This document shows positions 8,476-32,060 of a DNA stretch of 35,067 bases, piece after piece. The translations under genes were made by a program, and so were the position numbers. Numbering within the stretch: position 1 is the stretch's first letter; every line of letters begins with the position of its first letter. The notes below the pieces were generated by a model. It did not search any database. It was not told the DNA's origin and saw only the letters and a program-made list of their open reading frames with translations. The DNA comes from Patescibacteria group bacterium (GTDB lineage Bacteria; Patescibacteriota; Patescibacteriia; JACQRZ01), in NCBI GenBank assembly GCA_038065255.1, contig JBBTRI010000010.1:123762-158828 (forward strand). The letters are read 5' to 3'.

Positions 8476-9528
8476 TTATAAATAAGGATTTTTTTCTACC
8501 TCTTTCATAAGACCCATATAGATAATCGATAGGTTATTAGGGTCAATCGCAATGACTGAGGGCCACTGGGACGTTGGGAGAACCTGTGCTGTCCAATGAG
8601 CGCCATTGTCTGTGGAATGGTAGAATGTATTTTTTGTTGCATAATAAATCTCATCCTCGTTCGACGGATTCATCGCACCGACGCGCACATCCACGCTGCC
8701 TATTGGCGTAAGCGGGGGAATAAACCGCCAACTCTTTTCCGTTCCTTCAAATTTCCAGAGACCCATCGATGTTGCTAGGAATAACTGTTCTTTTTTGCCA
8801 GATACTTGAGCCGCTCGATAATCACCTCGTTGAAGCTGGATTTCCTTTGGTGGCGTTATGTCTTGCCAGTCACCGCCCTTCGTATAACTTCGAATTACTT
8901 GGGAATCGCGTGAAATAATGGTTACAATTGCTGTATCAAACTGATCAAGGAGAATTTTTGCAATGGGAGTGCGATCACGATAAAATACAGAATTCCATGT
9001 CATCCCTTGATTGGTACTTTTGAAGACATCTCCCGAAAGACTTGCAATATACACCACCATGGGATCGGACGAGTCAAGCGCAATACTGGTAATTCTTGTT
9101 TTCCGAGTTTCATTATAGATGGTTTCCCAACTTTCTGCGCAATTAACGGTACGTAAAACTTTGGTCGGAAGCGCCACAAAAAGCGTACATTTCGCCGTTG
9201 GATCTAGTACAACATCAACAATCTCTTGATTTGCAATCATTTGTGTCCAGTGAATTGCTGCGTTATCACTGATAAACAATCCTTGGGCTTTGGTGCCCAA
9301 AAAAAGATTAAGAGAATTCTTTGGATTAACTGCAAGAAATGTAGCTTCTGCTGTAGTAAGCCTCAGGAGTTTGCCACCCGTACCCTTTACAAGCGATTTT
9401 GACTGCCATGTATTTCCTTTATTCGACGATTGTATAACAGTATCGGAAGACCCCTTTAACGTACATGAGGCTCCGGTAAGCATCAGTGTGAGAATGACAA
9501 TACCAAGTGATGTGTTTGAGGTAGTCAT
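8476..9528 (-). CDS. Asp-box (BNR/sortilin-like) beta-propeller lipoprotein
   Basis: The 350-residue protein starts MTTSN at 9528, has a hydrophobic signal ending LTGASC, so a lipobox-like cysteine at about residue 22, and is probably lipid-anchored at the cell surface. Five or more Asp-box motifs are visible: SSNKGNTW, SDNAAIHW, STNQGMTW, SYTKGGDW and STDNGAHW. They are spaced as in seven-bladed sialidase/sortilin or YCF48-type propellers. The catalytic residues of sialidases are not apparent. The start overlaps the holB stop as ATGA. Function is unknown; binding of glycan or another ligand, or a scaffold for envelope assembly, is inference. Confidence 0.75.
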   Translation of the reverse strand: MTTSNTSLGIVILTLMLTGASCTLKGSSDTVIQSSNKGNTWQSKSLVKGTGGKLLRLTTAEATFLAVNPKNSLNLFLGTKAQGLFISDNAAIHWTQMIANQEIVDVVLDPTAKCTLFVALPTKVLRTVNCAESWETIYNETRKTRITSIALDSSDPMVVYIASLSGDVFKSTNQGMTWNSVFYRDRTPIAKILLDQFDTAIVTIISRDSQVIRSYTKGGDWQDITPPKEIQLQRGDYRAAQVSGKKEQLFLATSMGLWKFEGTEKSWRFIPPLTPIGSVDVRVGAMNPSNEDEIYYATKNTFYHSTDNGAHWTAQVLPTSQWPSVIAIDPNNLSIIYMGLMKEVEKNPYL

Positions 9529-10238
9529 AGGCTTGTGTTCAGGCAAAAAGCATCATATACGCTTTGTTCGCGCACACCGCCACTCCGGCTCATCTGCACA
9601 TTGATTAGTTCGCGATAGAGCAATATATTCACCTTGGGAATGGAATCTTTCTCACGCAAGATTGTACCTTCTAATTCAGAAAAAAATCCGTCACAATCAT
9701 CCTTTGTCAGCGACTGGCATGCTACGAGCTTTTCACCAAGAGAAAGCGATATCAAATGCGAAAGACTCATACTACTCATCCCGCTGATATGAGTACTTTC
9801 GGGCAGTCTCAATACGGCACAGCGAGATGCAACAGTTGGCATGACTCCTAAGCGAGAAAATGCCTTTAATATAAATACACTGTCTGCAGGTGTCTCTTCC
9901 AGTGTTTTAAGTAGTGCATTACCGCTTTCTGCAGTAAGCTCCTCGGCGCATGGTATCAAAACGATCCGAATCCGTCCAGAAATACTCCTTCGCGATAGCT
10001 TCTGCCGCACATCCTGTATTTGCTTAACTGTTATAATAGGATGCTTGCGATCTTCGTCTTCATTTTGGACTGTAATTGTTTCCGATGGTTTAATGTAATC
10101 GATAAATGTTTGTACAAAATCTTTTTCACCATCACCTGTACAACCAACAAAAAGCAGGGCATGAGGAAGCATACCCTCATGATAGAGTCGAACGACATAC
10201 TGCCACATTGGATGCTGTTCTTTTACTATACTATTCAT
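9525..10238 (-). CDS. holB: DNA polymerase III delta-prime subunit (short)
   Basis: The 237-residue product resembles the AAA+ clamp-loader subunit delta-prime. HALLFVGCTGDGEKDF replaces the P-loop, which is often degenerate in delta-prime. RIVLIPCAEELTAESGNALLKTLEETPADSVFILKA is the conserved ATPase-core block, and SRCAVLRL is the sensor 1 / SRC motif. At 237 residues it is shorter than the usual 300 or more, so most of the C-terminal collar domain seems reduced. The start at 10238 is chosen because the longer in-frame extension lies inside the upstream glycosyltransferase gene. It is embedded in an envelope operon, which is odd for a replication gene but happens in compact genomes. Confidence 0.85.
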   Translation of the reverse strand: MNSIVKEQHPMWQYVVRLYHEGMLPHALLFVGCTGDGEKDFVQTFIDYIKPSETITVQNEDEDRKHPIITVKQIQDVRQKLSRRSISGRIRIVLIPCAEELTAESGNALLKTLEETPADSVFILKAFSRLGVMPTVASRCAVLRLPESTHISGMSSMSLSHLISLSLGEKLVACQSLTKDDCDGFFSELEGTILREKDSIPKVNILLYRELINVQMSRSGGVREQSVYDAFCLNTSL

Positions 10239-24494: not shown

Positions 24495-24998
24495 TTAGCG
24501 TGCTATTGAAATTTCTGTCGTGTTTTCAGACTCGCAGGCGCGTACGGTAACAATGCCCGTCGCATCGCGCTGAAGCGTATAGCCGGTATGTCCCGCTGTC
24601 CATGTGCCGGCACCATTGGGGCTCACTGGTACTCCGCCCATTTTCCCTGCCGTCACAAGTCCGGCAACGTTCACGCAATTTGTTGCAGTTACAACATCGG
24701 TATCACAATTAGCATCATATGCATTGCAGGCAGCCGCATCAGTTCCGACCATGTACACTTGCCCGGCCGTCATATTTGTAATGGCTGTGAGATAATTGCC
24801 CCTGTTGTCTACTTGATCTGCCTTGATTGCCGTCATAATCGCTGAAATATCCGACCAGCGACGAGCATCACGCGTATCACGAAACCGAGTAAGTGGATCC
24901 AGTGCCACAAATGCTACTGCAGCTAATATCGCGATAACCGCAATTACAATAAGGAGTTCGATCAGCGTAAACCCCCATTGAAACGCCTTTTGTTTCAT
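24495..24998 (-). CDS. Type IV major pilin candidate
   Basis: The 167-residue prepilin starts MKQKAFQWGFTLIELLIVIAVIAILAAVAFVAL. The prepilin peptidase site is G9|F10 with glutamate at +5 of the mature chain, and the hydrophobic N-terminal helix runs to about residue 32. A short basic and aspartate-rich helix (RDTRDARRWSDI) follows and a globular domain with cysteines at about 95-130 and near the end could hold disulfides. Its promoter-like element and 96-bp gap from pilM suggest separate, higher expression, as expected of a major pilin. It is the last gene before the terminator. Confidence 0.87.
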   Translation of the reverse strand: MKQKAFQWGFTLIELLIVIAVIAILAAVAFVALDPLTRFRDTRDARRWSDISAIMTAIKADQVDNRGNYLTAITNMTAGQVYMVGTDAAACNAYDANCDTDVVTATNCVNVAGLVTAGKMGGVPVSPNGAGTWTAGHTGYTLQRDATGIVTVRACESENTTEISIAR

Positions 24999-25094: not shown

Positions 25095-26156
25095 CTAGAG
25101 ACGAAAAGAAGGATGCTCGCGTTCCCAAAAACCAAGTCTCACGCCTTTTAATGCCAATCCAAGCGCTTCGATATAATGAAGATGATCGGTTGTATCCGCA
25201 TTGTGATTGGGTTCAAGGAATGACGCTCCGCGCTGAACAGTCCGCTGTGTTTTCTCTTGAAGATATTCCGGCAATCCCACCAGGCGCGCTGATCCACCCA
25301 CAATAAGTATCTTGGTGATTGTTGCATTCATGCCTACCTCATAGTATGAGCATGCAGTGAGTATTTCATCAATAATAGGCTGGAGCAGTTTTTCAAACAG
25401 AGCGCGCCGAGAAATGGGCTCAAGACCCTCTTCCCGTTTAATCCTATCGGCTTCTTCTTTGGTAACATCAAGTGACTTCGCAATTTGTTCAGTGAAAAAA
25501 TCGCCGCCGATTTCAAGGGAGTGTATATATTCAAGGCCTCGCGACGAGCATATGGCAATTTTTGTCCTTTCTGCGCCACAGTCAACAATACAGAGAGGTT
25601 CGTGAGGTTGGCTGCCAAACAGCCCACGCGTGATAGCAAGAAGTTCGTGATCAAATGCAGCAACTCGATAAGGTGTTGTGTCAAAAAAATCCTTCCATTC
25701 CTGGAGCACTTCACGGCTCATGCCATATATCAGCACATCGACGGCAGTATCTTTCTTTGAAATAATTTTTGAAGAATAAATAAGATCGTCTTTTTCGATC
25801 GGAATGGTAGAGAGTGCAGTATCACGTATCTGTTCATTTAGTGCCGCTGGCGTTGAGACCTCAAAACGAGCTACGAAAGTATACACTTGGCGCTCTGGTA
25901 TTCCTACCACAATGTCATGCATCGAAAGCGGCTGCCCGGAAGCGCTCTGCCAAAGCAATGAGAGAGCCTCGAGAAGCTTTTTTTTATTTATAAGACGCCC
26001 GTGCTCTACTACTCCTTTCTCCAATGACATGCGTGCGCGATTTACAACAGTGGGTATGTGCGAAAAAACAGACCTTCGAAGTTCAATCGCTTCAAGAGTG
26101 TGGTCAGCTATATCCAATCCTAGTGCCTGTTTTTCAAACATATATAAAAAAATCAA
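25095..26156 (-). CDS. pilM: Type IV pilus assembly protein PilM
   Basis: PilM is an actin-like cytosolic protein that links PilN to the pilus machine. The 353-residue product has the FtsA/PilM-like ALGLDIADHTLEAIEL near residues 11-26, VDCGAERTKIAICSSRGLEYIHSLEIGGDFFTEQIA near 190-225 and ILIVGGSARLVGLPEYL near 290. Two starts compete: TTG at 26156 overlaps the previous stop as TTGA and has GGAGGAG eight bases upstream, whereas ATG at 26141 has none. The TTG is taken here because the same four-base overlap recurs in this operon. PilN and PilO genes, which normally follow, are absent from this stretch. Confidence 0.85.
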   Translation of the reverse strand: MIFLYMFEKQALGLDIADHTLEAIELRRSVFSHIPTVVNRARMSLEKGVVEHGRLINKKKLLEALSLLWQSASGQPLSMHDIVVGIPERQVYTFVARFEVSTPAALNEQIRDTALSTIPIEKDDLIYSSKIISKKDTAVDVLIYGMSREVLQEWKDFFDTTPYRVAAFDHELLAITRGLFGSQPHEPLCIVDCGAERTKIAICSSRGLEYIHSLEIGGDFFTEQIAKSLDVTKEEADRIKREEGLEPISRRALFEKLLQPIIDEILTACSYYEVGMNATITKILIVGGSARLVGLPEYLQEKTQRTVQRGASFLEPNHNADTTDHLHYIEALGLALKGVRLGFWEREHPSFRL

Positions 26157-26596
26157 TCATTTCTCTCCTCCCATGAAAGCACCACGGGAACTGCTCCCAA
26201 CAGCGAATACTGCGATCGAATATGTTTTGTATGTCCCGCCACCACGGCAGTCACGTCTATTCTTCGCGTAGTAGCATCGAGATTAGCAACCTGTAGTGTA
26301 CAGGAGCCATTCGGTGCTGTGAAGGGCACAGGACTGCTGAGCCCCCAGAGTACATCTCGCCGAATACGAATATATCCTTCTTCCATGCATCCATCTGCCA
26401 ATGACGACGCTTCGCCACCGCGTTCACCCACATAACTACCTTCTCTTTGGCCAAGGCCAATCACAAGCGCACTTGTTGAAATAATCAACAGCGATGAGCC
26501 AAGAATAATAACAGCAATGAGAAGTGAAACTCCCCTCTTATTGCCGGACCGATGCGGCTGTTTGAAATGTGTGTGTGAATGAAACATACGAATCAT
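26153..26596 (-). CDS. PilX-like pilus assembly protein
   Basis: With the ATG at 26596 the product is 147 residues. It has a basic start and then RGVSLLIAVIILGSSLLIISTSALVIGLG, a prepilin-like hydrophobic helix after a Gly, without the usual glutamate at +5. CMEEGYIRIRRD and the NGSCTLQV segment resemble PilX-like minor pilus proteins. The MIRMF start is repeated in the preceding gene and is chosen for that reason; earlier and later starts at 26620 (TTG) and 26587 (ATG) also exist. It overlaps the end of the preceding prepilin gene by 59 bases, an unusually long overlap. Confidence 0.7.
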   Translation of the reverse strand: MIRMFHSHTHFKQPHRSGNKRGVSLLIAVIILGSSLLIISTSALVIGLGQREGSYVGERGGEASSLADGCMEEGYIRIRRDVLWGLSSPVPFTAPNGSCTLQVANLDATTRRIDVTAVVAGHTKHIRSQYSLLGAVPVVLSWEERND

Positions 26597-27065
26597 CTTG
26601 AGAACGCATCTGCGTTTCAATAGTTATACGAACGTTTTCGCGTTCTGTTGAACCCGAAAGCAATGAAAATAGTAATTGGGATAATTGAACTTCATTAGTC
26701 GTCAAAGCAATAGGTTGAGCTGCACCCTCCTGCATGGTAAGTATGCCATTATCCTGATCAAGACGGAATATTGTTGGATTGACTGCCGGGTCTGCCATCG
26801 AAAGTGCAAGCACGCCAGGATCAGCATCAAATGTTGATGCTCCAGTATTGACACCTGTGGCGCTCCGAATTTTTTGACTCATGATATCCAGTGCCATCCG
26901 ACTATTTTCATCGACTTCCTGCATGCTTTCCAGTGATGACCGTGTGGAAAGAAGCGATACCATAAAACCTCCGAAACTTCCGGCAATCGCTAACAAAAGA
27001 GCAATAGTGATTATTGTTTCAAAAAGCGTAAAGCCTTTTGATTTCCGGTTGAACATACGGATCAT
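26538..27065 (-). CDS. PilW/GspJ-like minor prepilin
   Basis: The 175-residue prepilin has SKGFTLFETIITIALLLAIAGSFGGFM, with cleavage after Gly11 and glutamate at +5 of the mature chain. A helical stalk, DENSRMALDIMSQKIRSATG, precedes a beta-rich body. This is the pattern of PilW/GspJ-type minor pilins, which sit at the pilus tip and prime assembly. The start overlaps the stop of the propeller-pilin gene as ATGA, so translation is probably coupled. Confidence 0.8.
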   Translation of the reverse strand: MIRMFNRKSKGFTLFETIITIALLLAIAGSFGGFMVSLLSTRSSLESMQEVDENSRMALDIMSQKIRSATGVNTGASTFDADPGVLALSMADPAVNPTIFRLDQDNGILTMQEGAAQPIALTTNEVQLSQLLFSLLSGSTERENVRITIETQMRSQDDSYVSFTHTFQTAASVRQ

Positions 27066-28819
27066 TTATAATATATCCGAACTTCATTAAGAGTCGGCGT
27101 GTTCTGCATATCTCCATCGAGAATGACTCGGTATTGAACCCATCGATTATTATTTGCGGCACTGGATATCACCGATCCTCGAGGATCGGAAAAATACGTA
27201 TCAACTCCTGCAGAGCCATACCACGATCCAAAAACTCCCTGAATGCCACCATTATCCGGCGCGGTACGTACCTGAAAACGCACATCGCAGGCAGGAGTGC
27301 ATACAGGCACTGCTTCATCCCACTCAATAACAGTCACAGGAGAGGAATCGCTCAGGGAAAATGCTGATGATACGAGTGTCGCTTGTGCATAATAAGCATT
27401 CGCTACATAACGAAAAATTTTCGAACCATCGCCTACGGCCCATGCTGATGTTAGTGACAACGCACTAACTCCACGCAGATTGTTCGTCGTTGGAGATGTG
27501 GCTTCCTGCCATGAAACGCCGTTCCAATGAAGGATTTCTCCACCGTTTCCCACAGCCCATCCATGGACTGTAGAGGAAAAATGAATAGCGTTCCAATTAT
27601 TGCCTCCCGTATCCTCAGCTTGCGACCATGCAATACCATTCCAATGATAGATCAATCCCTGATCTCCGATTGCCCAGCCATCAAGCGCTGAAATCATATG
27701 GAGTGCACTCCATACCGTGCCGCCGGTATCCGTATGTTCTGCCCATGCCGCACCGTTCCAGTGATAGATCAAGCCTTGATTACCAACCATCCAACCGTCC
27801 GTAGCGCTTATCAGCTGCACATCATTCCATTCTGTACCGCCGGTGTCGGCAAACTCTGACCAGCTAACACCGTTATAGCGAAAAATTTTACCGGCAGCGC
27901 CAACTGCCCAGCCGTCAGACGGGTTTAAAAAATACACACTATTAAGATGGTCTGTTGCCGGAGATATAGCAGATGACCATGCAGTTCCATTATAGTGAAT
28001 GATCTTACCCCCATCTCCTACCGCCCAGCCGTCACTCTGTGAAAGCATATGGATTGCATTGATTCTATCCCCATGGGGTGAGGATACTTCCGTCCATGCC
28101 GTACCGTTGTAATGGGCAATAAGCCCGTTATCACCCACTGCCCACATGTCGCTTGCCGATACTGTGCTTACACCCCGAATATGGTGCCCCTGAGGCAATT
28201 CCGTATGGAGCGACCACGCGCCACTCCCGATATTTGGTGCAATCTGAACTTGACCCGCAATAGTAGTGAGCGCATGCCCATCATCGCTTTCATAACGATT
28301 GGGAAGCAGCCATGTACTCTGTCCTGCGCCGCCCACCCAATCTGTCTGTGTCCATACTGATGAATCCCAATTGGTAAGATAGGAACTTCTCACAACTCTA
28401 TTTGGCGTATTCTCAAGCGTTGTCCAATCAACGCGGCTCTCTGCATATTTCGTATGGGGATCCGTATAACTTGCCGGACATGAAGCACTATCTCCTTGAG
28501 ATGTTCTGCACACATCACTCACGGTGATCGTACGAGTAAAGGGTGGGATTGAATTGCTCGCACCCGATGCAATCCATTGATTTGCCGAAATTGCAACTCC
28601 GCTTGGCGTGGCTGGAAGCTCATTCCATGCTCCATCGCGTATTGAACGAATTGCTTCAAGACCCTCTTGGGCAAGGGCATCAGCTTCTAAATGCTGGGAA
28701 CCTTGTTGACCGCCATGAAGCGAACCCAGCATAAGCGAGACGAGTGCCATTGCAATGAAAGAAAAAATAGCTAAAGCAATGACAATTTCAAGAATGGCCT
28801 GCCCTTTTTTCTTATTCAT
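27062..28819 (-). CDS. Prepilin-like protein fused to a seven-bladed beta-propeller
   Basis: With the ATG at 28819 the product is 585 residues. A prepilin-type N-terminus (KKKGQAILEIVIALAIFSFIAMALVSLMLG) has a processing site G6|Q7 and Glu at +5. A non-repetitive region (about 40-200) with three or more cysteines follows. Seven tandem 39- to 40-residue units, each starting with W and containing GWAVGDGGxIxHYNG-like cores, occupy about 202-475. A C-terminal domain (about 476-585, ending NEVRIYYK) resembles a discoidin/laminin-G-type sandwich. The likely role is a pilus-tip adhesin, by analogy with PilY1. That is inference. It shares eight bases with the upstream prepilin gene. Confidence 0.8.
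   Translation of the reverse strand: MNKKKGQAILEIVIALAIFSFIAMALVSLMLGSLHGGQQGSQHLEADALAQEGLEAIRSIRDGAWNELPATPSGVAISANQWIASGASNSIPPFTRTITVSDVCRTSQGDSASCPASYTDPHTKYAESRVDWTTLENTPNRVVRSSYLTNWDSSVWTQTDWVGGAGQSTWLLPNRYESDDGHALTTIAGQVQIAPNIGSGAWSLHTELPQGHHIRGVSTVSASDMWAVGDNGLIAHYNGTAWTEVSSPHGDRINAIHMLSQSDGWAVGDGGKIIHYNGTAWSSAISPATDHLNSVYFLNPSDGWAVGAAGKIFRYNGVSWSEFADTGGTEWNDVQLISATDGWMVGNQGLIYHWNGAAWAEHTDTGGTVWSALHMISALDGWAIGDQGLIYHWNGIAWSQAEDTGGNNWNAIHFSSTVHGWAVGNGGEILHWNGVSWQEATSPTTNNLRGVSALSLTSAWAVGDGSKIFRYVANAYYAQATLVSSAFSLSDSSPVTVIEWDEAVPVCTPACDVRFQVRTAPDNGGIQGVFGSWYGSAGVDTYFSDPRGSVISSAANNNRWVQYRVILDGDMQNTPTLNEVRIYYK
27395..28216 (-). repeat. Seven tandem ~117-bp units encoding propeller blades
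   Basis: The encoded units are 40, then six times 39 residues. Units 4-6 are the most alike (all begin W-x-E/Q-x-x-DTGG and end LI/IL-HWNG). No unit is disrupted. Confidence 0.8.
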
Positions 28820-29276
28820 ATTCAGCTTTACCTGCGCCATTAATAGAAAGTGTGCGAGCACCTGATACGCTATGCGTGAGAATAACTGTTCCCGTAGCCG
28901 AAGGAAGAGCGAATGTATTTGAAAAAACAATTTCCTGAGATCCTTGGGTTAATGATGGCGCAAGTGAGATTGCAGAATCCAACTGCACAACTCGGTCATA
29001 GCCCTGTTCTCGTGCCGCATAGGATGTCCCCTGAAAAACAACATAGCGATCGGGACCGGTAGGATTACTATCAAAATAGATCCCATGAGGAATGTTATGA
29101 AGGCGTGCTGCGCTCATGGTACGCATAAGCCTCAGATTTTGTATAAGTTGAGCTGCTCCTTCGTTGAGTTGCGAACTTACCTGAAGATTTGAATAGATGG
29201 GAAATGCTGCTGCCACCAATAGAAGAGTGATGCCGCTCACGACCAAAAGCTCAATAAGCGTAAAACCGTACTTCAT
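28812..29276 (-). CDS. GspH/FimT-like minor prepilin
   Basis: The 154-residue protein starts MKYGFTLIELLVVSGITLLLVAAAFPIY, so the processing site is G4|F5 with Glu at +5. The body, beginning SSQLNEGAAQLIQNLRLMRTMSAARLHNI, matches the GspH/FimT-type helix then beta-sandwich. It is a probable tip-complex minor pilin. The start overlaps the pilC stop as ATGA and its end overlaps the start of the propeller pilin. Confidence 0.83.
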   Translation of the reverse strand: MKYGFTLIELLVVSGITLLLVAAAFPIYSNLQVSSQLNEGAAQLIQNLRLMRTMSAARLHNIPHGIYFDSNPTGPDRYVVFQGTSYAAREQGYDRVVQLDSAISLAPSLTQGSQEIVFSNTFALPSATGTVILTHSVSGARTLSINGAGKAEYE

Positions 29277-30355
29277 TTTTTTACCCCTCCTGTAATATTG
29301 TAAATTGGAGTAATAATTGAGAGAGCCAAAAATGCCACTGCAAGGCCTATGAAAATAAGGAGAGCTGGTTCTATGACAGTTGAGAGCGCTTTTGTTGCGC
29401 TATCCACTTCTGCTTCATAATATTCTCCGAGGTAGAGCAGCGTATCCTCAAGCTTGCCCGACTCCTCTCCAACGCGCACCATATGAACAAGAACCGAAGG
29501 AAAAAGAATAGGATATTGATCCAATATCTCATGAAGTGCGCTTCCTTTTGTAACGCGGATGCCAAGCTCTTGCATTGCAGATTTATAATAGAAATTTTCA
29601 AGAGTCTGTTTCATAATATCAAGCGCTTCATCAATGCGCAGTCCGCTTTTCAACAACATTCCGAGTGTTCTTGAAAATCTGGCAAGATTTGCCGCTTGCG
29701 TAATTTGCTTGACGATTGGAATCCGCAGAAAAAACCAATGCGTATAGGGGCGAATAAAACGCCGCTTCAGCAGCCATGCCAAAAAAATAATACCGCCAAT
29801 AACACCAACAAGAAGCACTGTTCCGTGCTGCTCAACAAGCTTTGAAAAAGCAATAAGCCATTGTGTCGTAATCGGCAATTCCATCCGAAGTCCGGTAAAC
29901 AGCGGCGTGATTTGCGGCAACACAAAGAATGCTATCACAAGACCCAATACAAGCGTTGCTATAAGTACGATAATGGGATAAATGAGCGCGCCTTTCACTT
30001 TCGAAATAACTGCACGATCTTTTTCCAGCTGCAATGCAAGGTGCTCAAGATTCGTTTCGAGTGTGCCTGATACTTCTCCGGCGCGCACAGCACTGACAAA
30101 TAACCCAGAAAATACCTTTTTATGATCTGAGAGTGCATCGGCAAATGATCTGCCTGCAGTAACAGAACGAGAAACATTATCGAGAACGAACTTCAATGTT
30201 CCATGCGCAGAATCTTGCACGATATGCAAAGCTTCGGTGATTGAAAGCCCTGACTTCAGCATAATTGCAAGGTGCCGCGCCAATAACGTTCGCTGGGAAA
30301 GCGAAACGCCGCCAAGTGACATGGTAAGAGGGTTTTTTTTGGTTTTTTTTACCAT
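29273..30355 (-). CDS. pilC: Type IV pilus inner-membrane platform protein PilC (GspF family)
   Basis: The 360-residue protein contains two related GspF domains. Domain 1 is about residues 20-140 (LARHLAIMLKSGLSITEALHIVQD and GTLETNLEHLALQLEKD) and domain 2 about 225-345 (ARFSRTLGMLLKSGLRIDEALDIM and GEESGKLEDTLLYLGEYYEAEVD). Each ends in a hydrophobic span, with a central pair of membrane helices. PilC transmits the motion of PilB to the growing pilus. It starts seven bases after pilB and its stop overlaps the next prepilin start. Confidence 0.93.
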   Translation of the reverse strand: MVKKTKKNPLTMSLGGVSLSQRTLLARHLAIMLKSGLSITEALHIVQDSAHGTLKFVLDNVSRSVTAGRSFADALSDHKKVFSGLFVSAVRAGEVSGTLETNLEHLALQLEKDRAVISKVKGALIYPIIVLIATLVLGLVIAFFVLPQITPLFTGLRMELPITTQWLIAFSKLVEQHGTVLLVGVIGGIIFLAWLLKRRFIRPYTHWFFLRIPIVKQITQAANLARFSRTLGMLLKSGLRIDEALDIMKQTLENFYYKSAMQELGIRVTKGSALHEILDQYPILFPSVLVHMVRVGEESGKLEDTLLYLGEYYEAEVDSATKALSTVIEPALLIFIGLAVAFLALSIITPIYNITGGVKK

Positions 30356-30362
30356 ACTCTTC

Positions 30363-32060
30363 TTATGTGCGGGTAACTCGAATCACCTCCTGAAAAGTCG
30401 TGATGCCCAAAAATATTTTATCAATGCCATCATCCAGCATTGTTGTCATGCCACCCTTCACAGCAGCATCCATGAGTTCCTCACTTGAAGCGCGGCGCAG
30501 GATTGCTTCGCGAAGAATATCATCAAGCTGCATGACCTCGTAAATACCTAAGCGCCCGCGATACCCCGTTTGGCTGCAAAGAGCACATCCCTTTCCACGG
30601 TACCATTGGATGTGAGCGATAGACTTTACGTTATGGGCAAGGATGCGTTCTTTAAGAAGTGTTTCATCTTCGATAAGCCGTTTTTCTTCCGGTGTTATGG
30701 TGTACGATTCGCGACACTTTTCGCATATTTTTCTCACCAAACGTTGAGCAATCACAATATTCACCGTACTTGCCAACAAGAACGGTTCAATATTCATATC
30801 GAGAAGTCGGGGCAGTGTTGTTGCAGAATCATTTGCGTGGAGCGTTGAGAGCACCAAATGCCCCGTCATTGCAGAGTTGATAGCAATGCCGGCTGTTTCT
30901 TCATCGCGAATTTCACCGACTAAAATAATATCCGGATCTTGGCGCAAAATAGAACGCAGCCCGGTGGCAAAAGTCAGATTGGTTTTGGCATTTACTTGGA
31001 TCTGATTGATGCCTTCAATATCATATTCCACAGGATCTTCAATGGTAATAATATGAACATCCCGTTTATTGAGAATTTTTAAAATAGCGTATACCGTGGT
31101 GGTTTTACCGCTGCCGGTTGGTCCTGTCACCAAGATCATGCCATAGGGTTTTCGAATAGCGCGCTGAGTTTTTTTAAGATCATTTTCAGAAAATCCCAAA
31201 TCATTGAGATTAAACTGCTGAGCTTTACTGGAAAGAAGGCGCATGACGACATTTTCTCCATAGGTTACGGGCACAACCGATACGCGGACATCGATTGTTT
31301 CGCCATCGGTAGCAAAACGGAATTTTCCATCTTGAGCTGCTCGATGTTCATCGGTACGCATTCGGGAAAGAATTTTAATGCGTGTTACAATCAGCTCGGT
31401 TAGTTCTTTTGGCATTTCCAAAACATCGTGCATAACGCCATCGATGCGGAATCGCACAAGAATTCTTCGAGAAGACGGTTCGACATGGATGTCTGATACG
31501 CGATTTTTGTAACCATAGTGGACGATCGAATCTACAAGCTCAACAATGGCACTGTCTCGTTCTTCACGGGAAAGCGAAAGGTTTTTTATGCGCTGATAGA
31601 TGCCTTTAAATACCTCTATCAAGCTGCCCTTGTATTGCGCCACTGCTTTTGCAAGCCCTTTGGGAGTGATGACATAGACAATAATGGGTTCGCCAAACCG
31701 CTTCTCAAGAAGATGCCGCATAGAAAGATCTTCCGGATCGATCATTCCCACTCGAATACCCTCCGCTCCTCTGCCAAACGCTACAACTCCGCTTGCTTCT
31801 GAAACAATTTGGGGAATGAGATAAAAAACATTTTCTTCAATTGTTTCTTTGACAAGATCAACAAAGGGAACACCAAGAGCTTTGCCAAGCTGTGCTCCAA
31901 GTTTTTCTTCAGATAGGTTGTTTTGTTCTAAAAGGGCCGGGAACAAATCCTGCTTTGTTCCTTTAATCGATTTTTTCAATGCCAAAACATCATCCTTAGA
32001 AACGATGTCTTTGCGAATCATGATAGCAATGCATTTTTCTTCACTGCTCATTCGTGCCAT
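30363..32060 (-). CDS. pilB: Type IV pilus extension ATPase PilB (GspE family)
   Basis: The 565-residue protein drives pilus polymerisation. An MshEN-type N-terminal domain (about 20-150) is followed by the N2 region with SDIHVEPSSRRILVRFRIDG and the ATPase core. Walker A is GPTGSGKTT at 313-321, Walker B DIILVGE at 377-383, and the His box LSTLHAND near 404. A four-cysteine zinc site is present at C446/C449 and C492/C495. No separate PilT is seen here. The gene is the first of the pilus operon, and a dyad lies directly before its start codon. Confidence 0.95.
   Translation of the reverse strand: MARMSSEEKCIAIMIRKDIVSKDDVLALKKSIKGTKQDLFPALLEQNNLSEEKLGAQLGKALGVPFVDLVKETIEENVFYLIPQIVSEASGVVAFGRGAEGIRVGMIDPEDLSMRHLLEKRFGEPIIVYVITPKGLAKAVAQYKGSLIEVFKGIYQRIKNLSLSREERDSAIVELVDSIVHYGYKNRVSDIHVEPSSRRILVRFRIDGVMHDVLEMPKELTELIVTRIKILSRMRTDEHRAAQDGKFRFATDGETIDVRVSVVPVTYGENVVMRLLSSKAQQFNLNDLGFSENDLKKTQRAIRKPYGMILVTGPTGSGKTTTVYAILKILNKRDVHIITIEDPVEYDIEGINQIQVNAKTNLTFATGLRSILRQDPDIILVGEIRDEETAGIAINSAMTGHLVLSTLHANDSATTLPRLLDMNIEPFLLASTVNIVIAQRLVRKICEKCRESYTITPEEKRLIEDETLLKERILAHNVKSIAHIQWYRGKGCALCSQTGYRGRLGIYEVMQLDDILREAILRRASSEELMDAAVKGGMTTMLDDGIDKIFLGITTFQEVIRVTRT

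Follow-up and report, generated by a model that had tools for sequence, protein, structure and literature searches.

The window, by which we mean the whole 35,067-nucleotide stretch of DNA analysed from the genome of an ultrasmall Patescibacteria group bacterium (G000; 1.09 Mb on 27 contigs, 99% complete), encodes a protein, P0001, which is probably a modular minor type IV pilin that sits at the pilus tip and acts there as an adhesin. Its head is a seven-bladed propeller carried between a pilin stalk and a C-terminal domain. In relatives of P0001 the operon slot is fixed and the two ends are conserved, while the head between them is swapped. Propeller-bearing and modular pilins are already known, and it is the fixed chassis with exchangeable heads that forms the newer part; the slot, the two ends and the swapped heads also go beyond an earlier reading made from the letters of this DNA (the sequence-only reading), which proposed a prepilin fused to a propeller and a surface tip adhesin. 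The features discussed below are collected in Table 1.

Table 1. The pilus operon of the window and the parts of P0001, with the basis of each assignment.
Feature	Coordinates	Strand	Basis or remark
PilA-like pilin, probably major	24495..24998	-	sequence GFTLIELLIVIAVIAILAAVAF; position
PilM	25095..26156	-	PilM_2, E 2.9e-23
PilX/GspK-like minor pilin (by position)	26153..26620	-	sequence, synteny; without Glu at +5
PilW/GspJ-like minor pilin (by position)	26538..27065	-	N_methyl, E 6.7e-5; synteny
Modular minor pilin P0001 (PilV/GspI slot)	27062..28819	-	585 aa; ORF, synteny, homologues
P0001 C-terminal domain, residues 474-585	27065..27400	-	conserved whatever the head
P0001 seven-bladed propeller, residues 201-472	27404..28219	-	seven 39-residue blades; strand 201-207 closes the last blade
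P0001 pilin helix and stalk, residues 7-200	28220..28801	-	conserved whatever the head; AlphaFold2 confident for the helix only
P0001 prepilin leader MNKKKG	28802..28819	-	predicted cleavage before QAILE; sequence, homologues, prepilin peptidase of the genome
FimT/GspH-like minor pilin	28812..29276	-	N_methyl, GspH
PilC-like platform protein (T2SSF)	29273..30355	-	Pfam T2SSF, E 3e-52
PilB-like extension ATPase	30363..32060	-	pilT_fam below cut-off, 183.9 bits; recurs at syntenic loci

The reading frame of P0001 lies on the minus strand between an ATG at 28819 and a stop codon at 27062-27064. Its product begins with MNKKKGQAILEIVIALAIFSFIAMALV, that is, with a leader of six residues that has Gly at -1, with Glu at +5, and with a hydrophobic stretch following MNKKKG/QAILE. 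The Pfam N_methyl model matches residues 1-26 below its cut-off (E 0.0044; 17.0 bits against 21.2). Gly or Ala at -1 and Glu or Asp at +5 recur in practically all of about 40 homologues, which bears out the prepilin signal of the sequence-only reading. A prepilin peptidase gene is present in the genome (PF01478, E 1.8e-11).

Around the gene, the order on the minus strand is PilB-PilC-FimT-[P0001]-PilW-PilX-PilM-PilA, and P0001 therefore occupies the PilV/GspI slot. The PilX/GspK-like neighbour has no Pfam match. Elsewhere in the genome, two PilT-family ATPases score above the curated cut-off. P0001 thus has the marks of a modular pilin: a class III signal (a hydrophilic leader ending in Gly or Ala, and Glu at +5), a domain that is not specific to pilus biology, and a gene encoded together with the assembly machinery (PilB-PilC-FimT-X-PilW-PilX-PilM).

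The propeller is evident from its repeats. Seven W[AM][VI]G motifs begin at residues 226, 265, 304, 343, 382, 421 and 460, and self-comparison of the protein at lags of 30-49 gives a single peak at lag 39 (42% identity against 2-9% elsewhere). The blade motif, found seven times in the real protein, appeared in none of 10,000 composition shuffles. Seven repeats had been read earlier with a spacing of 39 to 40 residues; the number stands, and the spacing is corrected to exactly 39 throughout. AlphaFold2, given a shallow alignment of two rows that both came from one relative (L029), modelled residues 201-472 as seven blades with block pLDDT mostly 80-89. The last repeat has no outer strand, and residues 201-207 (GAWSLHT), ahead of the first repeat, supply it in the manner of a 'velcro' closure. 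The best fold in the PDB for this model, searched with Foldseek, was the seven-bladed Ycf48, represented by 5ojr and other entries (E 3.9e-15; 18% identity; TM 0.73 over the target), and the seven-bladed closure for which structure prediction had been suggested as a check is thus borne out. No Pfam or NCBIfam model fits the blade, the Ycf48 models PSII_BNR (PF14870) and NF010237 do not match, and the Pfam search for RCC1 repeats was negative, the repeats here being of a W-A-V-G type with 39 residues. The sole PDB sequence match is a weak one to Toxoplasma TLAP2 (9ya3_H, E 0.0012, residues 382-477), and a search of viral folds returned generic propeller matches only, some of them tail fibre proteins.

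Relatives extend this picture. Within the family (11 genomes, the same 11 being found by a search for gene order), full one-ring relatives occur in G006 (62% identity) and G007 (47%) and two-ring relatives in G003 and G005, with that of G004 split over two contigs; a related C-terminal-type domain follows each ring. When rings were counted with a blade profile, contiguous arrays contained 7, 14 or 21 blades, and single proteins 7 to 35 blades in one to five rings. The raw tally of 43 rings, from which G200 (L067; irregular blade detection) and the second ring of L029 (a run of N) were left out, gave 37 scoring seven blades and six scoring six. Two of these six come from truncated sequence, one of them (L016) being seven-bladed in L008, and on reading the ring of L055 proved to have seven blades with a weak last one. 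This leaves 39 of 42 complete rings seven-bladed and three six-bladed, namely the second ring of L061, the ring of L069 and the third of L074, with L061 and L069 in one family. The comparison of copy number between related genomes that the sequence-only reading had recommended is thereby provided. Rings tend to group by their position within the protein across genomes, between G000 and G006 each blade mostly resembles its counterpart best, and in L060 the pairing of ring r1 with r3 and of r2 with r4 suggests that a unit of two rings was duplicated. Judged from these sequence comparisons, the unit that evolves is the whole ring and not the single blade, which is an independent argument that the rings are closed and seven-bladed.

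Among the 381 genomes of the class, 200 contain a match to P0001, many of them only at residues 1-200 and about 475-585. Forty locus stretches were taken as a sample for comparison, and at nearly all of them, as far as the stretches reach, the order PilB-PilC-FimT-[modular pilin]-PilW-PilX-PilM is kept. What the relatives retain is the slot, together with some 200 residues at the N-terminus and, in most cases, about 110 at the C-terminus; the middle part varies. In other classes of the phylum, L124, L126, L127 and L128 hold frames of 1527-2386 aa with W-A-V-G rings; these gave no pilin-stalk match and were left out of the counts.

In the AlphaFold2 model, pLDDT falls below 50 in the stalk past the helix, as it does in much of the C-terminus. 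The C-terminal domain had been described as sandwich-like: judged by its conservation it is a genuine unit, while the sandwich fold is a guess, because a separate model of the domain, built from three rows, reached a pLDDT of 54. Distances between C-terminal domains track those between stalks (Spearman 0.43) and are independent of whether the head is shared (coefficient 0.01), as measured over the loci with a detectable C-terminal domain, a choice that biases its apparent conservation.

Between these ends, the heads are W-A-V-G propellers, ConA-like lectin domains, LVIVD propellers or unnamed modules. Laminin_G_3 (ConA-like lectin) matches, with E as low as 1.7e-81, were found in the heads of L065, L073, L078, L085, L087, L091, L092 and L093, CBM_4_9 in those of L091 and L092, and LVIVD repeats in those of L087, L091 and L092; the heads of the other loci are regions without a Pfam match. 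Single proteins may be composite, the pilin of L093 having four Laminin_G_3 stretches and that of L087 lectin domains together with LVIVD repeats. At L083:2467-5409 (-), the head has no Pfam match and consists of ~45-residue repeats (YEFDT...DGYVTTVDIDAAGNI), possibly a further type of propeller. A tree built from the stalk only calls for at least 11 changes of head type and, counting W-A-V-G against all other heads, at least six, and a single clade of all W-A-V-G pilins is rejected on this tree (p-AU 6e-6). The exchange is best seen in L029, with two W-A-V-G rings, and L065, with a lectin head, which share a genus code. Their heads do not match, whereas the stalks are 63% and the C-terminal domains 53% identical, and so are the neighbours to a similar or higher degree (PilC 81%, FimT 65%, PilW 61%, PilX 69%, PilM 62%). 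Three further pairs show the same pattern.

P0001 is accompanied by other propeller proteins in its own genome. A second minor-pilin operon, FimT-[PilV-like]-PilW-PilX, is found on another contig (G000:C11; L120:1092-3919), and its PilV-like prepilin, in a frame of 461 aa, continues as a fusion into an LVIVD propeller (PF08309, E 1.7e-30) that has some seven units. G006, G003 and G001 also carry this type of operon with an LVIVD-propeller pilin, and G010 and G002 carry it with short or other heads. In the window itself, a 356-aa protein at 8476-9546 (-) starts like a lipoprotein (LTGASC) and contains a BNR propeller of the Sortilin/Ycf48-like type (PF15902, E 4e-13; NF045728, E 5.6e-20, below cut-off). 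Two adjoining Ycf48-like proteins with ~30% identity to the propeller of P0001 lie at G000:C20:12600-18272 (L002, L003), with N runs nearby.

Several known systems resemble P0001 in part. The sequence-only reading set the propeller on a pilin-like chain apart from PilY1, and for P0001 this is right. PilY1/PilC tip adhesins (PF05567) likewise have a seven-bladed propeller that is thought to be presented at the tip by minor pilins, but PilY1 is a separate non-pilin chain without a sequence match and PF05567 does not match P0001, whose propeller sits on the pilin itself. Such an arrangement is not without precedent, since TM7x PilX2 and modular pilins have been published (PMC12206443, PMC8179133), among them a Falkowbacteria modular pilin with 12 LVIVD (IPR013211) repeats (PMC8179133). 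Like P0001, PilX2 of TM7x (Nanosynbacter lyticus) is a Patescibacterial minor pilin whose propeller, there on the C-terminal side, has seven blades, and deletion of PilX2 lowers host binding; TM7x also has two type IV pilus sets (PMC12206443), just as the genome studied here has two minor-pilin operons. PilX2 is described with RCC1-type repeats, the name PilX and no predicted PilD signal (PMC12206443), whereas P0001 has Ycf48-type repeats, occupies the PilV slot, shows a clear class III signal and has a further, conserved domain after its propeller. Modular pilins with grafted domains are widespread, and PilB (vWA) and PilC (lectin) of Streptococcus sanguinis share with P0001 a pilin module with Glu at +5 and a grafted domain; ConA-like lectin heads occur both among known modular pilins and among the relatives of P0001 (PMC8179133). 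P0001 differs from these in its Ycf48-type propeller, for which Pfam has no model and which has a conserved stalk on one side and a conserved C-terminal domain on the other, and in its fixed operon slot. Ycf48 (PSII_BNR) itself, the closest solved fold, is a photosystem II assembly factor and belongs to a wholly different context. In the open literature, which leaves out most subscription papers, propeller pilins of Patescibacteria were found only in one report (PMC12206443), and no description was found there of a Ycf48-type head, of a PilV slot that stays constant and goes with a conserved C-terminal domain, of rings that multiply as wholes or of heads replaced repeatedly.

What the propeller does can be argued in more than one way. 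It could replace PilY1 in starting or stabilising the filament, with no part in binding a partner: P0001 is one of the minor pilins that start the filament, in Myxococcus assembly is primed by PilY1 (cited in PMC12206443), and the PilY1 family is found in none of the 381 class genomes, this one included, a weak test given that no control genome gave a match either. Such a priming role is nevertheless unlikely, for lectins, LVIVD propellers and unnamed modules, all of unrelated folds, replace the head while the stalk and neighbours are kept, which is not what one would expect were assembly dependent on the propeller as such. The GspH/GspI-type minor subunits are common to pili and secretion systems, which would allow a pseudopilus instead of a surface pilus; with PilM and a PilA-like pilin in the operon and PilT homologues elsewhere in the genome, this is most improbable. 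No secretin came to notice in the window.

In many bacteria, DNA is taken up with the help of type IV pili. The head might bind DNA for competence, as proposed for the Thermus minor pilin ComZ with its large extra module (PMC8179133). The acidic ring (pI 5.2, net charge -15) speaks against DNA binding, the 43 tallied rings have a median net charge of -13 with four positive and 39 not, and the alternative heads are of carbohydrate-binding types, so that a DNA-uptake head is hardly to be expected. Sialidases and several glycosidases are propellers, and the head of the relative at L093 weakly matches sialidase-type models, which together invite the idea that the pilus carries an enzyme, for instance a hydrolase or lyase acting on glycans. 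P0001 matches no enzyme family in Pfam or NCBIfam and the most constant blade positions (G, G and W) appear structural, leaving an enzyme very unlikely.

A surface tip adhesin is the best reading of the operon slot and the exchangeable heads; from these we infer adhesion and a ligand, and the position at the tip is deduced from the homology to minor pilins and the bulk of the protein. In this proposal, prepilin peptidase would remove MNKKKG, and the N-terminal helix would pack with the FimT-, PilW- and PilX-like minor pilins into a filament-starting complex that ends up at the pilus tip. The stalk and the conserved C-terminal domain would form a chassis presenting the Ycf48-type propeller outward as a binding head. 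PilB would extend the pilus and PilT would probably retract it, pulling the small cell towards the target of the head, for which a protein or a glycan of a partner cell is the likeliest candidate. Since the same subunit in the same operon place has different heads, it probably decides what the tip of the pilus will bind, and other heads on the same chassis would change specificity in other lineages.

We give about an even chance to a wider reading, in which one chassis (stalk and C-terminal domain in a fixed slot) bears exchangeable heads throughout the class and more rarely across the phylum, the chain may turn back after the head to place its C-terminal domain on the stalk, which would make the head an insertion in a split pilin module, and propellers multiply by nothing less than a whole ring, with blade numbers of 7 to 35. 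If this holds, the range of partners may evolve through the swapping of cassettes between conserved ends. The ring counts provide a clean natural record of propeller evolution, with gains of whole rings, in sevens. All this would bear on how Patescibacteria select partner cells and keep hold of them, and on the identity of the hosts of almost all uncultured lineages. One recognisable slot that holds the probable recognition head would point to candidate partner-binding proteins across hundreds of genomes, which can be tested domain by domain.
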